NCBI RefSeq assembly: GCF_002024805.1
Contig: NZ_CP014337.1
Span: forward strand, 2,356,001 to 2,420,000
Reading direction: 5' to 3'
DNA length: 64,000 nucleotides
Source: Elizabethkingia bruuniana
GTDB lineage: Bacteria > Bacteroidota > Bacteroidia > Flavobacteriales > Weeksellaceae
In this document: positions 11,495 through 18,880 of the stretch, piece after piece
Numbering within the stretch: position 1 is the first letter of the stretch
Layout: every line of letters starts with the position of its first letter
Program-made: the position numbers and the translations under genes
The notes under the pieces: generated by a model
Databases searched by the model: none
The model's input: the letters and a program-made list of their open reading frames with translations, nothing else
What the model was told of the DNA's origin: nothing

Positions 11495-11582
11495 ATTATT
11501 GTTTTTTTGGTAAAGTAAAATTAAAAAATATGCTTTTAATAAAGCCTATTTATATTCTTTTATTAATCACTGAAAATAAAAA

Positions 11583-11604
11583 CAGACATCCCTTCGGATG
11601 TCTG
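11583..11604 (-). terminator. Terminator after the fimbrillin-like lipoprotein gene
   Basis: A perfect 9-bp stem CAGACATCC / GGATGTCTG with a 4-base loop is followed on the minus strand by TTTTTATTTT. It lies about 105 bases past the stop codon at 11710. Confidence 0.85.
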
Positions 11605-11709
11605 CCTTCAGACTGTTAACTAACAAAAATAGGATGATGACAAATAAGCACCGGATATTAACAGTTTTTCTTCTTCTTTATGGAAAGTAATAAGTGATTG
11701 AATTTATTA

Positions 11710-13296
11710 TTATTGACAAGCTATTATTTTCTTACCTACACCTAAACCTCTCATTACAGTAGCCCCAGTTACCAGCATAGTTGCCTCAACAGTATTTGAA
11801 CCTGTAGTCTTCCATGTAACAGTATTGAAACGGGTGCCACCATATAATTCAAGAGGTTCTAGACCTGAAGAAATTGTTCTTCTCCCCATCATAGAAACTG
11901 AACCATCCGGACCGATTGTAATTCTGATAATCGGCGTTGTGTTTGTTGAACTTCCTAAAGAATAAATCTGAGAAATTCCGGTATCCCCCCATTGCTTCTT
12001 GTCTGACTTAAACCAGATATTTCTTGGATAATTATCTACACCTGACTGAAATTGAATTTCCTGAGTTGCTAAATCTACTCCGTTAACCTTCATATTGAAG
12101 GAATTATCCAGTTCATAGATGTCAAATACAAATCCAGCATCTGCAGCTGGTGCATTAAATGTTCTTGTTAGTCTTGTTCCTGATCCGGAATCAGACATAC
12201 TAAAAGGCCAGGTTGGTGTTGCATCCATCGTACACGCAAACTTCAACTTAAGATTGTATTTCACTCCTGGAGTAACTACCAGATTATTAACAGAAAAATT
12301 TCTTTTGGTCTTAGCCCCTACGGTAATTGTTCCAGCTGCAGAGTCAGGAAATATTAACGTAGACATATCTGTTGCCAAAATACCGGGATTAGCAATTAGT
12401 GTAGGATTACTTGTCCATATTGCACTAGTTGATGTAGGAGGAGTAAAGTTAACAGACTTAGTTGCAGATGTACCACCAAAACTAACTACACCAGTAGATA
12501 AAGCCATACTGTTACCATTTCTTCTATGATTATCTAATACTATTCCGCTTCCTATAGAAGAAATTGGAGTTCCTGGTGCTACAGCAGAGGCATCTATAAC
12601 CGTAGTAATCTGACTGAATTTATGTGCCAGTATAATATTCAAAACATTATCTCCTTTGGATACCCTTACATTATTAGTACGGAAATACATTAGATCATTA
12701 TCTCCCGAAATACTTGGTAGTGTCGCAGTCGAAATGCTTCCTGTAACATCTCCCGGAGCCGTAGAATTATTATACGACAGCACCACAAAATCATATTTGT
12801 TAGTTGCTTCAGTATCTCCATCCAGCATCATATCACCAGTATCTGCCGTAGAAACCCCATTAGCGTCTATTGTATAGACATTACTTGCTACTTTAACTCC
12901 TGTACTTGTCCTGTATGCAATAACACGATATTTTACATTAGGACCTTTCAATGGATTCCTAATAACATCTGCTATAGGATTAACTGATGCTTGCGGAGCA
13001 ATTGCTGATGAAGTAATAGGTGTAAGCGTAGCAATAACAGGTTGCTCACCTGCCATAAATGTACTTACCTGCTCTTTTACAACAGAAGATACACCTGTAT
13101 TTTTAACAGATGCCTGTGTAGAGATAGTTTCCGTTTCATATTCACTTCCGAGCAAGTTCATCTTTATAAGAGCAGAACCATTAGTAATTAAATTTTCACC
13201 GGAATTATCTACAGCATTATCAGAGCTTCTGCACGATGTTATCAAAAGTGAACCGGATAACATAAAAACCGCAGTTGTTATTTTTAAGTTTTTCAT
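11710..13296 (-). CDS. Fimbrillin-like surface lipoprotein
   Basis: This 528-residue protein has a type II signal peptide with lipobox LLITSC (Cys22) followed by a Ser/Asp-rich linker. The architecture resembles Mfa1/FimA-type fimbrillins (Mfa_like_1): a first domain with YRVIAYRTSTGVKVASN (about 125-141), a following DYT-like strand, and NVLNIILAHKFSQITTVID (about 218-236). That last block is the HxFSxV/I core typical of fimbrillin domain two. The C-terminal half is beta- and Thr-rich. It could be a fimbrial subunit, a tip or anchor protein, or a related adhesin. It follows the 57-codon peptide gene by 52 bases and is followed by a strong terminator, which suggests a two-gene transcript downstream of three TPR-AraC regulators. 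Confidence 0.7.
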   Translation of the reverse strand: MKNLKITTAVFMLSGSLLITSCRSSDNAVDNSGENLITNGSALIKMNLLGSEYETETISTQASVKNTGVSSVVKEQVSTFMAGEQPVIATLTPITSSAIAPQASVNPIADVIRNPLKGPNVKYRVIAYRTSTGVKVASNVYTIDANGVSTADTGDMMLDGDTEATNKYDFVVLSYNNSTAPGDVTGSISTATLPSISGDNDLMYFRTNNVRVSKGDNVLNIILAHKFSQITTVIDASAVAPGTPISSIGSGIVLDNHRRNGNSMALSTGVVSFGGTSATKSVNFTPPTSTSAIWTSNPTLIANPGILATDMSTLIFPDSAAGTITVGAKTKRNFSVNNLVVTPGVKYNLKLKFACTMDATPTWPFSMSDSGSGTRLTRTFNAPAADAGFVFDIYELDNSFNMKVNGVDLATQEIQFQSGVDNYPRNIWFKSDKKQWGDTGISQIYSLGSSTNTTPIIRITIGPDGSVSMMGRRTISSGLEPLELYGGTRFNTVTWKTTGSNTVEATMLVTGATVMRGLGVGKKIIACQ

Positions 13297-13348
13297 TGTT
13301 TTTGAGGTAATAGATTTATTTCATATTTGTTTGTTTCAATCCAGATAC

Positions 13349-13522
13349 CTACCATTCAATGGATCTGTTATCGTCATCACCCTGAGTCCACTCTTCCTGA
13401 ACTTGGCCACCAGAATTTGGTGGAAGCACTTTAGCCGAACCAGCAGCTATTCCTTGCTCCATTTCTATTAGGAACATGTCAAATTTTGGAGATATATACT
13501 CCTCTTTTTTTAAATCATTCAT
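13349..13522 (-). CDS. 57-residue peptide gene upstream of the fimbrillin-like gene (previously hidden small ORF)
   Basis: I read this by hand on the minus strand. ATG at 13522-13520 opens 57 codons and ends at TAG 13351-13349. The peptide starts MNDLKKEEYISPKFDMF, has a middle block IEMEQGIAAGSAK, then a Pro/Gly/Gln linker, and ends EEWTQGDDDNRSIEW. It has no signal peptide and is acidic toward the C-terminus with two Trp. Short proteins with a Y-x-x-P start, an E-x-E-x-GI-A-x-S core and an acidic W-containing tail occur beside surface-lipoprotein genes in Bacteroidota; that is recall, not a search. It could be a leader, chaperone-like partner or precursor peptide. Codon use looks normal, and the gap to the lipoprotein gene is 52 bases. 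Confidence 0.75.
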   Translation of the reverse strand: MNDLKKEEYISPKFDMFLIEMEQGIAAGSAKVLPPNSGGQVQEEWTQGDDDNRSIEW

Positions 13523-13610
13523 TATACATTTGTTTGTGTTGTAATCTTCTTCTTTATGGGATAAGAGCGCTAGAAATAACCGGACAGTAATTTTTGTCTA
13601 CTGACCATAA

Positions 13611-13647
13611 TATTATTTAGACACTCTGATAAAGTTTATTATTTAGA
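13611..13647 (-). repeat. Two 11-bp direct repeats in the peptide-gene leader
   Basis: TATTATTTAGA occurs at 13611-13621 and again at 13637-13647, with starts 26 bases apart. Both copies lie between the putative -7 element and the peptide start codon. They could be binding sites for a regulator or simply AT-rich coincidence. Confidence 0.4.
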
Positions 13648-13699
13648 GTATCCTGTACAATTAAATCTAATGTTTGTTATCACCTGTCTTTGGCGATCG

Positions 13700-13732
13700 A
13701 TAAAGACGTGCAAAAATACTAGTAATAAAGAC
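13700..13732 (-). promoter_or_regulatory. Candidate promoter flanked by an ATAAAGAC direct repeat
   Basis: The minus strand reads TATTTTTGC at 13718-13710, matching the Bacteroidota -7 consensus TAnnTTTG. A clear -33 element is missing at the usual distance. The 8-mer ATAAAGAC (plus strand) sits on each side, at 13700-13707 and 13725-13732, 25 bases apart. This is the geometry of an activator-dependent promoter with a tandem operator, and AraC-type regulators are encoded just upstream. Confidence 0.4.
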
Positions 13733-13982
13733 TACCACGGAAGTACTACTGTTGTCAAAATCCGGAAAATGGCAAATAGAAGTTAAAAAACAACTTTTTA
13801 CTATATAGCTGATAATCAGTAATATAAAATTGTAAAATATAATTAAGGGCTATTTTGTAGTCGCTTTTATTATATTATTCAGAATGAGGATAAAAAAAAT
13901 CAACAGATGAATAAAGCACTTGTACTATGGTATGAATTGTATTTAGGAGATATAATCTGATAGATTTAAAACACAAAAAATA

Positions 13983-15521
13983 TCAGTGATCTTCATTTTT
14001 ACTAATAAACTTAATAAACTCCGAAGGCGAAACACCTGTAACATTTTTAAAGGTAGTTGTAAATTTGCTATGAGAACTTATTCCTACCTCGTCAGCTAAT
14101 GCACTTATTTTATATTGTCTGTATATAGGTTCGGCACTTAATTTTTTTAAAATATAATTAATTCTAAGCTCATTGGTATAAGTAGTAAAATCTTTCGCTC
14201 TATATTTCTTAATAATATAAGAGAGATATTTAGTATTGGTATCCATAAATGTTACCATATAGGACAAAGACATATTTTTATCTATAAACCGTACTTCCTG
14301 TTCAAATATATTTAGTTTTTCCAGAAGTGTCTTTTCTGTTTCTTCCGACATGACTGAAGTTGTATTATTATCAGATTTTTTTGGATTGGTTTGCACCAAT
14401 TTATTTTCTTCAGCAAGCTTATTCAGTATATCTTGAATTTTATTGATACGCTTTTTTTGCCTGTATCTGTATATAATGAAAAACAATATATTTCCCAATA
14501 TAAAAAGAACAGTCACATATATCAATATACTTTTAGTGAGTCCTTTTTTAGTTTTCTCCACACCTTCTTTCTCCAGGTTGAGGTATTTATTATTAATAAG
14601 CTCCGCATTCTGATCTTCTATTTCTGCAGAAAGAGAATCTTTTTTTCCTGTAGCTGCAAAAATTCTTTTTGCATCTTTTTTCTTAGTATAATATTCCTGT
14701 GCCGTGTGATAAATGTCTTTATCCAGATCTATGTATACAGACTTTCGGGCATATTCTTCAGCCCTGTCCAGATAGATTTTAGCTTTATCCGGTTCATCAT
14801 TCCGTATATAAGCCAATGCCAGCTCCTGATAGATCCTTCCTGCCAAAGCACTTCCCGGCATTTCCTTATCTGTGAAGAGTAATGCTTTATTATAGCAGGC
14901 GATGGCTTTTTTGTATTCTCCGATATTAATGTAACATACTCCCATCAATTGATCATTGGAAGCTGTAAAAAACTCTTTTGAGGAAAGTTTATCAAAATAT
15001 CCCTGGGCTTTTTTATATTTATCAATAGCTTCTTTATAACGATGTTGTTCAAAATCAAAATGAGCTAGTTCCTGCATTATAAGTCCCTGAACCTTAAAAG
15101 CATCAACACGATTACTGATTTTCTTTGCTGTTGCTAATGCTTTTTGGGAATAATATCTGGATTTATCATAGAGTTTCAGAAACCTGTACTGAGATGCCAG
15201 AAAACCATTTACTCTGGTTTGCCATGCATAATCATCGGTAATCTTTATAATTTCATCAGCTTTTTCAGCATAACTTATTGCTTTATCCATATCATTTTTC
15301 TGTTGATATAGTGTTGCTATGAGTAACAAGCTGCGGACTCTGTATGCAGGTATAACAGAACTCTTATACAATGAATCTGCAGCTACAATTGCTTTATCAA
15401 AATCTTCCTGAGCTATCTTATGAAGTATATTTTCATGAACTTTGCTATAAGCTTCATAATCCTGAGCTTTCACTAATAATACGAAAAAGCATATAACAAG
15501 TAAATAAATTTTATAAATCAT
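13983..15521 (-). CDS. TPR-transmembrane-AraC regulator 1
   Basis: This 512-residue one-component membrane regulator has a signal peptide (about 1-19, ending LLVKAQ). Tetratricopeptide-like helical repeats fill about 25-300, for example EFFTASNDQLMGVCYINIG and ALAYIRNDEPDKAKIYLDRA. One transmembrane helix lies at about 331-351 and a short linker follows. The AraC/XylS-type helix-turn-helix is at about 417-507 (core KISALADEVGISSHSKF, then VSPSEF). The expected topology is TPR outside, DNA-binding domain inside, with no kinase or receiver. It is the last of three tandem paralogues, 17 bases after regulator 2, and lies nearest the peptide and fimbrillin-like genes, which are plausible targets. 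Confidence 0.88.
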   Translation of the reverse strand: MIYKIYLLVICFFVLLVKAQDYEAYSKVHENILHKIAQEDFDKAIVAADSLYKSSVIPAYRVRSLLLIATLYQQKNDMDKAISYAEKADEIIKITDDYAWQTRVNGFLASQYRFLKLYDKSRYYSQKALATAKKISNRVDAFKVQGLIMQELAHFDFEQHRYKEAIDKYKKAQGYFDKLSSKEFFTASNDQLMGVCYINIGEYKKAIACYNKALLFTDKEMPGSALAGRIYQELALAYIRNDEPDKAKIYLDRAEEYARKSVYIDLDKDIYHTAQEYYTKKKDAKRIFAATGKKDSLSAEIEDQNAELINNKYLNLEKEGVEKTKKGLTKSILIYVTVLFILGNILFFIIYRYRQKKRINKIQDILNKLAEENKLVQTNPKKSDNNTTSVMSEETEKTLLEKLNIFEQEVRFIDKNMSLSYMVTFMDTNTKYLSYIIKKYRAKDFTTYTNELRINYILKKLSAEPIYRQYKISALADEVGISSHSKFTTTFKNVTGVSPSEFIKFISKNEDH

Positions 15522-15538
15522 AGCTTTTAATCATCAAA

Positions 15539-17104
15539 CTATTCGGTTACACTCTGATTGTCTTTATTCTCAATATATTTAATAAAATGTGACGGAGATA
15601 CATCCGTAACACTCTTAAAAATTGTTGTAAACTTACTGTGAGAAGAAAAGCCGGCATCTTCAGCCAGTGTACTTATCTTATATTGTCTGTATACAGGTTC
15701 CGTATTAAGTTTATCCAAGATATAATTGATCCTGAGTTCATTGATATAAGTAGTAAAATCTTTCCCTTTGTATTTTTTTATAACAAAGGACAAATATTTT
15801 GTATTGGTTCCTATATGAGTTGCAACATAGGATAGTGAAACTTTTTTGTCTGTAAATAATTGTTCTCTTTCAAAATTTTCAAGTTTTGTCAAAAGCAATT
15901 GTTCCGTTTCTAAAGACATTAGGGTTGTACCAGCATCTGTATTATCATCGGATTTCCCTGTCACTTCTATTTCAGCTTGTTCATTATTCTTTTCTTTAAG
16001 ATTTTTTAAAATATTTCTGATTTTTAATATTTGTCTCTTCTTTGCTCTGCTGTAGAAAAAGAAGAACAGCAGATTTCCGATAATGAAAACACCGCTTACT
16101 GCAATAAATATACTTTTAGTGAAATTTTTTTTCTCCTGTTCTGTATTCTGTTTTTCAAGCTTAGAGAATTGCTGATTCAGAAAACTCGTATTAAGAGAAG
16201 AAATCAGTTCCGATAAAGAATCCTTTTTTTCCGTTGCTAATGTAAAATTTTGTGCATCATTTTTCTTAGCATAATATTCCTGTGAAGTACTGTAAATTTC
16301 CTGATTAAGTCCCAAATACTTGGAATCTTTCACATAATCTTCAGCTTTATCCAGATATTCTTTTGCTTCGTCCAACTCTCCATTCCGAACATAAGCCAGT
16401 GCTAAGCCCTGAAACACTTTTCCTGCCAAAGTACTTTTAGGAATGTTTTTGTTTGCATATACCAAAGCTTCTTTATAATAAGTAATTGCTTTATCATACA
16501 TTCCTGCACCAATATAGCAGACACCCATCAGTTGGTTATTTGTAGCCGTAAAGAAATCTTTTTCACGAAGAAGACTGAATTTTTCCTGAGCTTTTTCTAA
16601 TTTAAAAATTGCTTTTTTATATTGTTTCGTTTTAATATCATAATGGGCCAATTCCTGCAGCATCAACCCCGTTACATTATCCGATTCAGCAGGATCTTTG
16701 ATATACTTTACAGCACTAAGTGCTTTCTCAGTATAAGATTTTGATTTATCATACAGACTGATAATTCTGTATTGTGACGCCAGGAAGCCAAATACCCTTG
16801 CACTATAATCATAAATTTGGTACTTCTCTATAATATCTTCCGACTTCTCCGCATAACTAACAGCCTTCTCTACCTCTCCTTTTCGTTGGTATAATTGCGC
16901 TAATAGCATAAGACTTTTAACCTGAAATGCAGGTTTAGCTGAACTTCTATATAGTGAGTCACCAGCAATTATAGCTTTATCAAAGTTCTTATGATAGGTT
17001 TCATGCAGTATTTTAGAATATACTTTATCATAGCTTTTAGCATTTTGTGCTTGCAATGACAATAAAAAAAGAACTGTCGTACATGTATAAATTTTCCGAA
17101 GCAT
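15539..17104 (-). CDS. TPR-transmembrane-AraC regulator 2
   Basis: The chosen start is the ATG at 17104 (MLRKIYTCTTVLFLLSLQAQ), which gives a proper signal peptide; an ATG three bases earlier and one at 17122 are alternatives. The product is about 521 residues with the same order as its neighbours: exported TPR region, one transmembrane helix (IFIAVSGVFIIGNLLFFFFY), then an AraC-type HTH with KISTLAEDAGFSSHSKF and VSPSHF near the end. A polar Glu/Lys linker between membrane and HTH is longer than in regulator 1. It is 45 bases after regulator 3 and 17 bases before regulator 1, so it is the middle gene of an operon. Confidence 0.88.
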   Translation of the reverse strand: MLRKIYTCTTVLFLLSLQAQNAKSYDKVYSKILHETYHKNFDKAIIAGDSLYRSSAKPAFQVKSLMLLAQLYQRKGEVEKAVSYAEKSEDIIEKYQIYDYSARVFGFLASQYRIISLYDKSKSYTEKALSAVKYIKDPAESDNVTGLMLQELAHYDIKTKQYKKAIFKLEKAQEKFSLLREKDFFTATNNQLMGVCYIGAGMYDKAITYYKEALVYANKNIPKSTLAGKVFQGLALAYVRNGELDEAKEYLDKAEDYVKDSKYLGLNQEIYSTSQEYYAKKNDAQNFTLATEKKDSLSELISSLNTSFLNQQFSKLEKQNTEQEKKNFTKSIFIAVSGVFIIGNLLFFFFYSRAKKRQILKIRNILKNLKEKNNEQAEIEVTGKSDDNTDAGTTLMSLETEQLLLTKLENFEREQLFTDKKVSLSYVATHIGTNTKYLSFVIKKYKGKDFTTYINELRINYILDKLNTEPVYRQYKISTLAEDAGFSSHSKFTTIFKSVTDVSPSHFIKYIENKDNQSVTE

Positions 17105-17149
17105 CATTTGTATTATTAGCATTTTATAAATCTAAAGTTTGCAGAAGCT

Positions 17150-18706
17150 TCAGACCTTCTTCTGGTTTATGTAATTAATAAAATGTGACGGAGATACATC
17201 TGTTATATTTTTAAAAATTGTTGCAAACTTACTGTGCGAAGAAAAGCCGGCTTCATCTGCAAGCACACTTATCTTGTATTGTCTGTATATGGGATCTGTC
17301 GTTAGTTTTTCTATGATATAATCAACTCTGAGTTCATTGATATAGCTTGTGAAATCTTTTTGCCTGTGTTTTTTAATGATATAAGAAAGATATTTTGTAT
17401 TGGTTTCCATATAAGAGGCTACATAGGATAGTGAAGCATTTTTATCTTTATAAAGCTGCTGTTTTTCAAACTTGTGCAAAGCTTCCAGCAAAGCACTCTC
17501 CGTTTCCGGAGGCATCATCTGTGTGCTTTTTTCTTTTGCAGCGCTATGTTCTGGTGCAGATGAATTTAAAGATGCATAAGATTCTTTTTGCCTTTTTTTA
17601 TGCTGATCCAGAATATACTGCATTCTGACCAATTGCTGCTTTTGTCTCCTCCGGTAGAATGTAAAAATTAATATCCCGCACAAAATACCTAAACCAACCA
17701 TAAGGATAGCAATATTTCTCAGAGAGCCGGTTTCTTTTGTTTTAATATTATTATTTTCTAACTGAACATAAGCATTATTGATAAAAGCATCTGTTTTTTT
17801 GGAAATTTTCTCTTCTACAACATCTTTTTTATCATTTATTTTACGAAGGTTCTCAATATCCTGTACTTTGCTGTAATACTCTTGGGTTCTTTTATAAACT
17901 TCTTTTTTCAGCTGCAGATATTCTGATTTATCTGCTATTTTCACAGCTTTATCCAGATACTCCTTAGCTTTATCCAATTCATCTGTCTTCATATATACCT
18001 CGGCAATTCCGGAATAAACAATTCCGGTAAGATAATTTTCCGGTCCGTCTTTCAGTAACGTTAAGGCTTCATTATAATATTTGAGGGAACGCCCTGTATC
18101 CCCTAGATTATAATAACACAAGCCTAAAAGTTGCTTATTACCAGCTGTCATAAAATCTTTATTCTGACTGATGTTATCAAAATACTTTTGAGAAGATTCT
18201 ATATTTTCGATAGCCTTTTGGTATTTCTGAACTGCTATATTATAATAAGCCAATTCCTGCGACACAAGACCTTTGGCACTACTAGCTGCTTCTTTATTTT
18301 CTATTTTTCCGGCATACTCCAATGCTTTTTCCGAATAAGTTCTGGATTTATTGAACAGGCCCAAAAGACGATACTGAGTGGAAAGAAAACCCAAAACCCG
18401 TGTATTCCAAGATGCATCACTTGTCTGTTCTATAATTTTTTCTGCTTTCAAGGCATAATCTACGGATCTTTTAAGATCATGAGTCTGTTGATATAAAGTA
18501 GCAGAAAGCATAAGGCTCTTTGTCTGTAACAAAGGGGTTTGTGATATATTAAAGAGAGAGTCTGAAACAGCCAAGGCTTTTTTGAAATCTTTCTGAGAAG
18601 TTTCAAGATATGTTTTTACATATATTTTATTAAAAGCTTCAGCATCCTGGCCTTTCACTATTAGCGTAAGAAACAGACCAAGAAAGCAAATTTTTATCTT
18701 CAACAT
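17150..18706 (-). CDS. TPR-transmembrane-AraC regulator 3 (first gene of the operon)
   Basis: This 518-residue protein is a paralogue of the next two genes. It has a signal peptide (MLKIKICFLGLFLTLIVKGQ), TPR repeats to about residue 305, one transmembrane helix (NIAILMVGLGILCGILIFTF) followed by basic residues RRRQKQQ, and a C-terminal AraC-type HTH (KISVLADEAGFSSHSKF, VSPSHF). The HTH is much better conserved among the three than the TPR part. This suggests they read similar DNA sites while sensing different partners. A good promoter lies about 143 bases upstream (18849-18880). Confidence 0.88.
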   Translation of the reverse strand: MLKIKICFLGLFLTLIVKGQDAEAFNKIYVKTYLETSQKDFKKALAVSDSLFNISQTPLLQTKSLMLSATLYQQTHDLKRSVDYALKAEKIIEQTSDASWNTRVLGFLSTQYRLLGLFNKSRTYSEKALEYAGKIENKEAASSAKGLVSQELAYYNIAVQKYQKAIENIESSQKYFDNISQNKDFMTAGNKQLLGLCYYNLGDTGRSLKYYNEALTLLKDGPENYLTGIVYSGIAEVYMKTDELDKAKEYLDKAVKIADKSEYLQLKKEVYKRTQEYYSKVQDIENLRKINDKKDVVEEKISKKTDAFINNAYVQLENNNIKTKETGSLRNIAILMVGLGILCGILIFTFYRRRQKQQLVRMQYILDQHKKRQKESYASLNSSAPEHSAAKEKSTQMMPPETESALLEALHKFEKQQLYKDKNASLSYVASYMETNTKYLSYIIKKHRQKDFTSYINELRVDYIIEKLTTDPIYRQYKISVLADEAGFSSHSKFATIFKNITDVSPSHFINYINQKKV

Positions 18707-18848
18707 AAAGTATTTTTAACCTAACGAGTTTGTACAACTTTAGCAAGATTAACTTATGATCTCAGATTTTGCTCAGCAATCCATCTTAATTTCCCTAAAA
18801 GAAAATTACAATATACATTTATCTGTACACAATAGTCAATTCAGACTG

Positions 18849-18880
18849 CAAATGTATACAAACAATGTATTTATAACAAA
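18849..18880 (-). promoter_or_regulatory. Promoter of the TPR-AraC operon
   Basis: The minus strand reads TTTG (18880-18877), 20 bases, then TACATTTG (18856-18849) followed by C. This matches the Bacteroidota sigma-A consensus TTTG-N19-21-TAnnTTTG very well. The implied transcript has a leader of about 135 bases. Confidence 0.65.

Follow-up and report, generated by a model that had tools for sequence, protein, structure and literature searches.

A repeated peptide–lipoprotein pair in Elizabethkingia and a candidate trans-acting operon resembling those of linear polyphosphorylated peptides

The Linear Polyphosphorylated Peptides (LPPs; LppA/B/K/S/D/N) have recently been described by Popov et al. 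(Nat Commun 2026, PMC13381572). According to the main text of that paper, leader cleavage was shown with a recognition element for ribosomally synthesized and post-translationally modified peptides (RiPP recognition element, RRE) together with a SpI-like peptidase, the leader motif bound by RREs is YxxP, and Ser3 of the core is polyphosphorylated. LPPs and paeninodins are there called restricted to Bacillota, and most, not all, matches to the SpI-like peptidase come from that phylum; the stem "Bacteroid" is absent from the main text. No Bacteroidota counterpart of LPPs surfaced among the titles and abstract openings of the literature within reach, most subscription journals and bioRxiv preprints being beyond it, and the accessible text of a paper on the RiPPs of Bacteroidales (PMC10352776) does not contain "fimbr", "nucleotidyltransferase" or "signal peptidase". 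Here we analyze a stretch of 64,000 nucleotides (the window; NZ_CP014337.1, positions 2,356,001 to 2,420,000) from the single-contig, 4.43 Mb genome of Elizabethkingia bruuniana (G000), a member of the Bacteroidota. Its minus strand encodes a 57-residue precursor-like peptide, PEP, which lies behind three regulator genes and in front of a gene for a surface lipoprotein of a family designated F0. The reading that we favor is that PEP is probably an LPP-like ribosomal peptide precursor, which would be matured in trans by a single distant operon, each core acting as the partner of its own lipoprotein.

The PEP gene occupies positions 13349 to 13522 of the window and is followed at 11710 to 13296 by the F0 gene, which encodes 528 residues with the lipobox cysteine at position 22; both are on the minus strand, and neither product matches any Pfam or NCBIfam model. 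The first-pass annotation, made from the DNA alone, had treated the 57-codon frame as a gene, and rightly so: the window peptide is one of 29 PEP matches in the G000 genome, and its dN/dS is 0.065–0.15 (six comparisons, four species), close to the 0.11–0.17 of the window F0 gene (four species). Pooled over 13 orthologue pairs from G000 and E. miricola, the dN/dS of PEP is 0.092, indicating strong purifying selection of the kind on which that annotation had staked its proposal; three of these pairs contain no synonymous difference, and one covers 58 codons, starting two codons too far upstream.

An F0 gene starts within 400 nt downstream on the same strand for 27 of the 29 PEPs in G000 (profile search). 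PEPs recur with the same F0 partner in Sphingobacterium, where the figures are 7/8 in Sphingobacterium sp. CZ-2 (G237) and 11/13 in G446, and the E. miricola stretches give 17/20; in 59 further loci, which partly repeat the other sets, the count is 45, three of the misses being cut by the end of a stretch. The median gap between PEP and F0 is 32 nt (107 pairs). In four Sphingobacterium loci (L162, L173, L175 and L176) the order is reversed, with F0 immediately upstream (F0 profile E ≤ 3.4e-97), and in Sphingobacterium L178 the F0 gene overlaps PEP. Other genomes too keep the peptide next to lipoprotein genes, so that neither this condition nor that of selection, both set by the first-pass annotation, refutes the peptide–lipoprotein pair, which is a real, repeated and selected unit.

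Within the PEP family a constant leader is followed by a variable C-terminal core, according to the pattern YxxPx[ILV]...EMEx(G/S)IA-xxS. In the window peptide the leader corresponds to residues 1–26 (13445 to 13522), ending ...EMEQGIA, and residues 27–57 (13352 to 13444) would form the core. The leader could be placed in 133 of 137 distinct PEPs, where the key residues stand at fixed spacing: Tyr in 132, Pro in 133, Glu in 132, Ala at −1 in 127 and Ser at +3 in 130, counts that lean high because each leader window was positioned where these five residues fitted best before they were counted. Gly or Ser occurs three residues before the predicted cut in 129/133, and one of [ILVFM] two residues after the leader Pro in 131/133. 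The YxxP motif of the window peptide (Y9–P12, 13487 to 13498) is the predicted binding site for an RRE, a role taken from PMC13381572, and Ser29, the third residue of the core, is the predicted site of modification. A cut after ...(G/S)IA is deduced from the conservation. Cores are 21–39 residues long (45 pairs). PEP contains no 19-residue hydrophobic window (maximum 0.80, hydropathy), and the leader families of Pfam and NCBIfam, compared with 27 PEPs, reach a best E of 0.02, with one member only.

The four PEPs left out of these counts fitted fewer than three leader residues and all belong to one orphan subfamily. This PEP-like peptide occurs in four Elizabethkingia genomes (L047:11174-11314, L124:7798-7968, L157:9047-9217 and L158:9101-9271), reads RMG(H/D)GITSGP where other PEPs have the common motif, and lacks the Ser, the C-terminal Trp and a downstream F0.

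Because the leader carries a YxxP motif, RREs were sought, and a PqqD protein was found in all five PEP genomes searched. In G000 the PqqD gene lies at about 154.5 kb, within an operon at about 154.1–158.4 kb, some 2.2 Mb from the window. The row of genes there encodes a Sec11-like peptidase, PqqD, an NTP_transf_5 protein, an MsbA-like ABC exporter, an HprK-like kinase, and Wza-like and Wzc-like proteins; eight of the nine genes before it are glycosyltransferases (Pfam). The discrete PqqD-like protein, taken as the RRE, scores 60.2 bits against PF05402 (cut-off 23.4), and its nearest solved structure is TfuB1 (6jx3, E 1e-5). The peptidase scores 33.2 bits with Peptidase_S24 (cut-off 23.3) and 41.1 bits with its best NCBIfam model, the archaeal-type TIGR02228, which is below the cut-off of 51.85; its Ser-His-Asp signatures SM, HR and GDGN are invariant in five sequences. 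The NTP transferase matches PF14907 at 126.5 bits, and the exporter has ABC_membrane and ABC_tran domains and no C39 domain. Library models match the kinase only weakly (TIGR04249, E 3e-5; TIGR04355, E 6e-4), and a search by sequence for a solved relative found none, while the kinase motifs GKSTH (the P-loop) and GxPWSGKT are invariant in six sequences. A Pfam scan covering 17 genes of the G000 operon region found neither a macrolactam cyclase nor a lasso B2 peptidase. This distant operon gives PEP a likely biochemistry.

The distribution of PEP and operon was compared in several sets of genomes. In 395 genomes of the class (NTP transferase at E ≤ 1e-15, PEP at E ≤ 0.01), the transferase occurs in seven, among them all five genuine PEP genomes (G000, G237, G446, G333 and G545), and in all five the RRE, peptidase, kinase and exporter genes adjoin it. 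PEP matched seven of these genomes, and the matches in G290 and G349 (L066 and L065) were dropped, since they lie inside repeat proteins of about 930 residues. RREs were searched around transferase copies in the transferase-positive genomes; in the two that have the transferase alone, reading 20 kb around each of the three copies revealed no RRE gene. A wider PEP profile matched six of 395 genomes sampled from the phylum, including G726 and G792, whose matches (L134 and L133) were dropped as they fall at residue 243 of a 319-residue lipoprotein. Among 199 relatives, 31 genomes gave PEP matches, 26 of them at E 0.03–0.9 only and treated as chance; the five clear PEP genomes all carry the transferase at E ≤ 1e-149, neither gene occurs in the congeneric G002, and three others have weaker transferase matches without PEP. 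Among 93 Sphingobacterium genomes, 70 have both, one the transferase only, nine PEP only and 13 neither (Fisher p 2.4e-9).

PEPs also occur beside the operon. A PEP–F0 pair adjoins the whole operon in L235, L236, L237, L238 and L242, with an OmpA-family gene beside each, and in L094 and L096 a pair adjoins the PqqD, transferase and Wzc-like genes, with peptidase and exporter missing there. In G333 (L196) a PEP stands between the Wzc gene and that of a 728-residue lipoprotein, followed by OmpA, peptidase and exporter; this lipoprotein matches neither the F0 profile nor Pfam. In G545 a small open reading frame (ORF) with YxxP but no F0 stands immediately before the kinase gene (L200:14843-14986); it was detected through its motif, not through the PEP profile. 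Within single-contig Sphingobacterium genomes, at least 6 of 68 PEPs lie within 12 kb of the operon against 0.50 expected, among the matches listed together with two rows from G237; without G237 the figure is at least 4 of 60, among the matches listed, against about 0.35. We note that the PEP of G545 detected by the profile lies about 10 kb from the YxxP ORF, behind a C10 peptidase gene: at L108:2304-7201 the PEP-like peptide comes right behind a 1576-residue C10 peptidase with a Spi inhibitor and a type IX sorting tail, and no F0 is present there.

The core of PEP varies together with its lipoprotein. Similarity between cores correlates with similarity between the N-terminal parts of the paired F0 proteins within Elizabethkingia (r 0.59, 27 pairs) and within Sphingobacterium (r 0.56, 18 pairs), a value reached in neither case by any of 5000 permutations. 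Between the genera r is 0.447 (3/5000), or 0.42 given the leader (1/5000), compared with 0.21 for leader against F0 (381/5000), or 0.13 given the core (1006/5000). If only those Elizabethkingia pairs are taken that come from separate loci and whose cores are less than 0.7 identical (327 pairs), the core gives r 0.61 and the leader 0.04. In an exploratory sliding-window analysis, the regions of F0 that track the core form broad peaks near residues 195–234 and 299–381. The co-variation suggests contact between core and lipoprotein without proving it, because joint inheritance can contribute.

Taken together, these results lead us to a model in which a local regulator, here the trio of membrane regulators, would switch on one PEP–F0 pair. 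The RRE protein would hold the leader through YxxP, the kinase and NTP transferase would modify the Ser at core position 3, the Sec11-like peptidase would cut after ...(G/S)IA, and the MsbA-like ABC exporter would move the core outward, where, on the surface of the cell, it would bind the F0 lipoprotein of its own pair or help in its assembly. A single trans-acting machine would thereby serve some 29 precursors. We are most confident that PEP is a substrate of the RRE, peptidase and kinase operon, which we regard as very probable; the cut site and the modification of Ser are deduced by analogy, and cleavage, modification and export of PEP follow as predictions. That the core acts as the partner of its own F0 is suggested by pairing and co-variation, and here we consider the case for and the case against to be about equal.

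Several observations weigh against the model. Eight of the 35 F0 ORFs in the stretches fetched from G000 have no PEP, and PqqD is not specific, being present also in 3 of 14 control genomes. In G000 about 32 kb separate the operon from the nearest PEP, so that in this genome the link has to be one in trans. The co-occurrence counts are uncorrected for phylogeny, and 9 of 79 PEP-bearing Sphingobacterium genomes have no transferase at E ≤ 1e-15, the only operon gene searched there. Three of these nine genomes hold 4–8 PEPs. At the three PEP loci read from transferase-negative Sphingobacterium genomes (L239–L241) the operon was not seen nearby. The LPP signature FETxxS is not found literally in PEP, FET being replaced by (G/S)IA, and the spacing from Tyr to Ser is 20 residues rather than 18. 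The leader too tracks F0 weakly within genera (0.30 in Elizabethkingia, 0/5000; 0.26 in Sphingobacterium, 7/5000), and the core tracks the C-terminal part of F0 as well, if less strongly than the N-terminal one (r 0.40 and 0.48 within genera, 0.24 between, 21/5000), so that the co-variation may in part reflect duplication or transfer of both genes together. Finally, the maturation of PEP, including peptide, cleavage and modification, is a prediction from sequence. The PEP at L239:10007-10177, like those of eight further Sphingobacterium genomes, occurs without the transferase, which the model does not explain unless other parts of the operon remain.

A different view of the same data is that PEP is an unmodified cytosolic helper of the lipoprotein (a chaperone, adaptor or translation regulator), and that its co-occurrence with the operon reflects a shared history of surface-polysaccharide and adhesin loci. 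The missing hydrophobic window, the co-variation of core and F0, and the position of the G000 operon behind a row of glycosyltransferases would all suit such a helper. It leaves unexplained, however, the near-invariant YxxP and AxxS motifs of the leader, the adjacency of PEP and operon in Sphingobacterium and G333, and the YxxP ORF that precedes the kinase gene in G545 without any F0, and we judge it improbable.

The regulators upstream of PEP were the basis of a second alternative. As the first-pass annotation had stated, three membrane regulators with tetratricopeptide repeats (TPR) and an AraC-type helix-turn-helix (HTH) stand in tandem on the minus strand: regulator 1 (17150 to 18706, 518 residues; Pfam TPR_12 and HTH_18 above cut-off), regulator 2 (15539 to 17122, 527 residues) and regulator 3 (13983 to 15521, 512 residues; Pfam and synteny), separated by 27 and 17 nt in the ORF map. 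Pfam and hydropathy identify the TPR part, transmembrane segment and AraC HTH. Each regulator has an N-terminal hydrophobic stretch and a single strong transmembrane-like window at residue 332–338, ahead of the HTH; in regulator 1 a signal-like N-terminus is followed by the TPR part, the transmembrane-like window at residue 332 and the HTH. They are paralogues rather than the near-identical sensors they had been called, with identities of 45% and 53% between regulator 2 and its two neighbors. A stretch of 460 nt (13523 to 13982), in which neither a promoter nor a leader could be placed, separates regulator 3 from PEP.

PEP might then be a signal sensed by the periplasmic TPR domains of these neighbors, or their partner in a switch. 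The three regulators lie directly upstream of PEP in the same direction, and TPR domains of other families, such as the RRNPP family, do bind peptides. Moreover, 9 of the 29 PEPs in G000 have a TPR-AraC-like gene within 4 kb, and one of the nine, L040, with a divergent TPR-AraC gene, encodes a PEP 81% identical to that of the window. However, the equally close PEP of L043 (also 81%) adjoins a histidine kinase–LytTR pair instead, and no such gene lies within 4 kb for the other 20 PEPs in G000 or for 20 of 21 in two Sphingobacterium genomes (0/8 and 1/13 have one); in the E. miricola stretches 5/20 have one. Regulator 3 is split in E. miricola (L110) and missing in E. occulta (L112), although intact in Elizabethkingia sp. 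YR214 (L111), while PEP and the lipoprotein are intact at this locus in all three; and the PEP core tracks the lipoprotein. We consider both versions, signal and switch partner, very unlikely, and a pairing of TPR proteins and peptide as a general rule was rejected, such genes being near a minority of PEPs.

The neighbors of the remaining PEPs are diverse. AraC genes are found near the G000 PEPs of L046, L047 and L054, genes that resemble LuxR weakly, some with and some without TPR, near those of L039, L041, L042 and L048, and in L039 a histidine kinase and a NarL-type regulator adjoin a PEP without F0. TPR-AraC genes are one among many regulator types near PEPs. Since regulator 3 decays in relatives that keep PEP and F0 intact, and other PEPs have other regulators, the trio lies outside the conserved unit and is local wiring. 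Of the regulator–peptide–lipoprotein system proposed earlier, the peptide and lipoprotein hold together and the regulators do not belong to the general arrangement; the TPR-AraC proteins are presumably ordinary one-component regulators of the window pair.

Export of PEPs as double-glycine-type bacteriocin or pheromone precursors by the C39 peptidase-ABC transporters of the genome was set aside after all three C39 loci had been examined and is the most improbable of the alternatives: GIAAGS does resemble a small-residue cut site and one transporter (L113) has no recognized precursor, but the precursors encoded at L114 itself carry canonical MKKLxRxxLKxIxGG leaders, which PEP does not resemble, L115 belongs to a lanthipeptide-like cluster, no leader family of Pfam or NCBIfam matches a PEP better than the single hit mentioned above (one of 27 members), and PEPs are associated with the RRE operon and its exporter, which lacks a C39 domain. 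Two of these loci merit a record of their own. L114:3355-7327 holds at least five small peptides with MKKLxRxxLKxIxGG-like leaders near a VKOR/DsbB-like protein and is probably a double-glycine cluster, and at L115:1-7148 a Lant_dehydr_N protein adjoins the C39 transporter in what is probably a class I lanthipeptide-like cluster.

A search with F0 at E ≤ 1 gives 27 genomic matches, of which some are fragments of one gene, and no solved structure was found with the F0 profile. F0 proteins have a lipobox, a common N-terminal part and, in some members, variable C-terminal domains: among 34 members (alignment A4, which includes the window protein and excludes the L042 paralogue) these are Fib_succ_major in 10, Lcl_C in three and a chitin-binding-like domain in one (E ≤ 0.01). 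Because of this combination, a role as adhesin is plausible. The window protein had been called fimbrillin-like, which survives in part: the L042 paralogue passes Mfa_like_1 (31.6 bits, cut-off 27), while the window protein matches no model and none of the 34 members matches Mfa_like_1 at E ≤ 0.01, so that the family appears distantly fimbrillin-like. At L052:6353-7845 in G000, the F0 gene downstream of one PEP is split into two frames and is probably decaying.

Signals around the locus were compared with shuffled sequence. A terminator-like hairpin of 15 pairs (11577 to 11610, minus strand) follows F0, in agreement with the terminator first annotated there, and the region has 10 terminator-like sites against 3.2 ± 1.9 in shuffles. 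The good promoter ascribed to the regulators finds no such support: sigma-70-like sites are at chance level (38 against 36.6 ± 6.4), the consensus being one that need not fit Bacteroidota. Integrase-type recombinase genes occur near G000 PEPs at L045 and, twice, at L055, and between each of the three genes and its PEP–F0 pair there is an inverted repeat (L045:7482-7707, L055:8060-8296 and L055:16050-16291). The arms are 24–26 nt long, 84–100% complementary and spaced by 178–192 nt, with a common TAGTCCT core, as found without a shuffle control. Judged by their sequence these repeats are likely to be invertible promoters, which would make the pairs phase-variable.

We can go one step further and suggest, as a speculation that we think rather unlikely, that the modified core, exported by the machine at the polysaccharide locus, is a surface adaptor whose Ser3 carries a phosphate- or sugar-based group, anchoring or assembling its own adhesin on exopolysaccharide or the outer membrane. 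If this were so, the genome would hold about 27 peptide-coded adhesins as a switchable repertoire, all dependent on one maturation machine, and in three loci of that repertoire recombinase genes stand with inverted repeats resembling invertible promoters. Elizabethkingia includes opportunistic pathogens of people, and control of its surface repertoire is thus of practical interest. In any case, one genome provides some 29 candidate substrates without a Pfam or NCBIfam model, and the results suggest a machine of the RiPP type acting in trans on dozens of dispersed precursors.

How, then, does the PEP system compare with those already described? Of the Bacteroidota fimbrillin-like lipoproteins and tip adhesins of Mfa_like_1, F0 shares the lipobox, and one member passes the model, whereas the window F0 passes none. 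The ELxxIxGG-type leader of double-glycine/C39 peptides is absent from the PEP alignment. HprK-related and SynChlorMet cassettes (TIGR04352, TIGR04355, TIGR04248 and TIGR04249) give weak matches to the kinase and the PqqD-like protein, all far below curated cut-offs. Lasso peptides of the paeninodin type, as described in PMC13381572, are closer, having a discrete PqqD/RRE, an HprK kinase, an NTP transferase and a [Y/W]xxP leader, and one PEP of the 27 compared has a marginal match to lasso_PadeA_fam (E 0.022); they differ in that the peptidase here is Sec11/SpI-like and that, within the 17 genes covered by the scan of the G000 operon, lasso cyclase and B2 peptidase are absent.

The closest likeness is to LPPs, judged by the domain set and by the motifs published in the main text of PMC13381572. 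Both systems have a SpI-like peptidase, a discrete RRE, an HprK-like kinase, an NTP transferase and an MsbA-like exporter; both have a YxxPx[V] leader, a variable C-terminus and a surface-polysaccharide locus, with no macrolactam cyclase (for G000, among the same 17 genes); and both have a conserved Ser as the third residue of the core, provided that the cut in PEP is where we predict it. LPPs as published there belong to Bacillota, with 1–3 precursors inside the cluster and the leader YxxPxVLxHQxIxFETxxS, whereas the present system belongs to Bacteroidota and has about 29 scattered precursors with the leader YxxPxIxVxxVEMEx(G/S)IAxxS, most of them paired with a lipoprotein. We therefore file the PEP system as a candidate variant of the LPP kind rather than as a proven LPP. 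It combines an equivalent gene set in Bacteroidota with precursor-like peptides that are spread through the genome and tied pairwise to surface lipoproteins; and while PMC13381572 gives the role of LPPs and paeninodins as unknown, the PEP–F0 pairing offers a concrete and testable one, namely that of partner to an adhesin-like lipoprotein.

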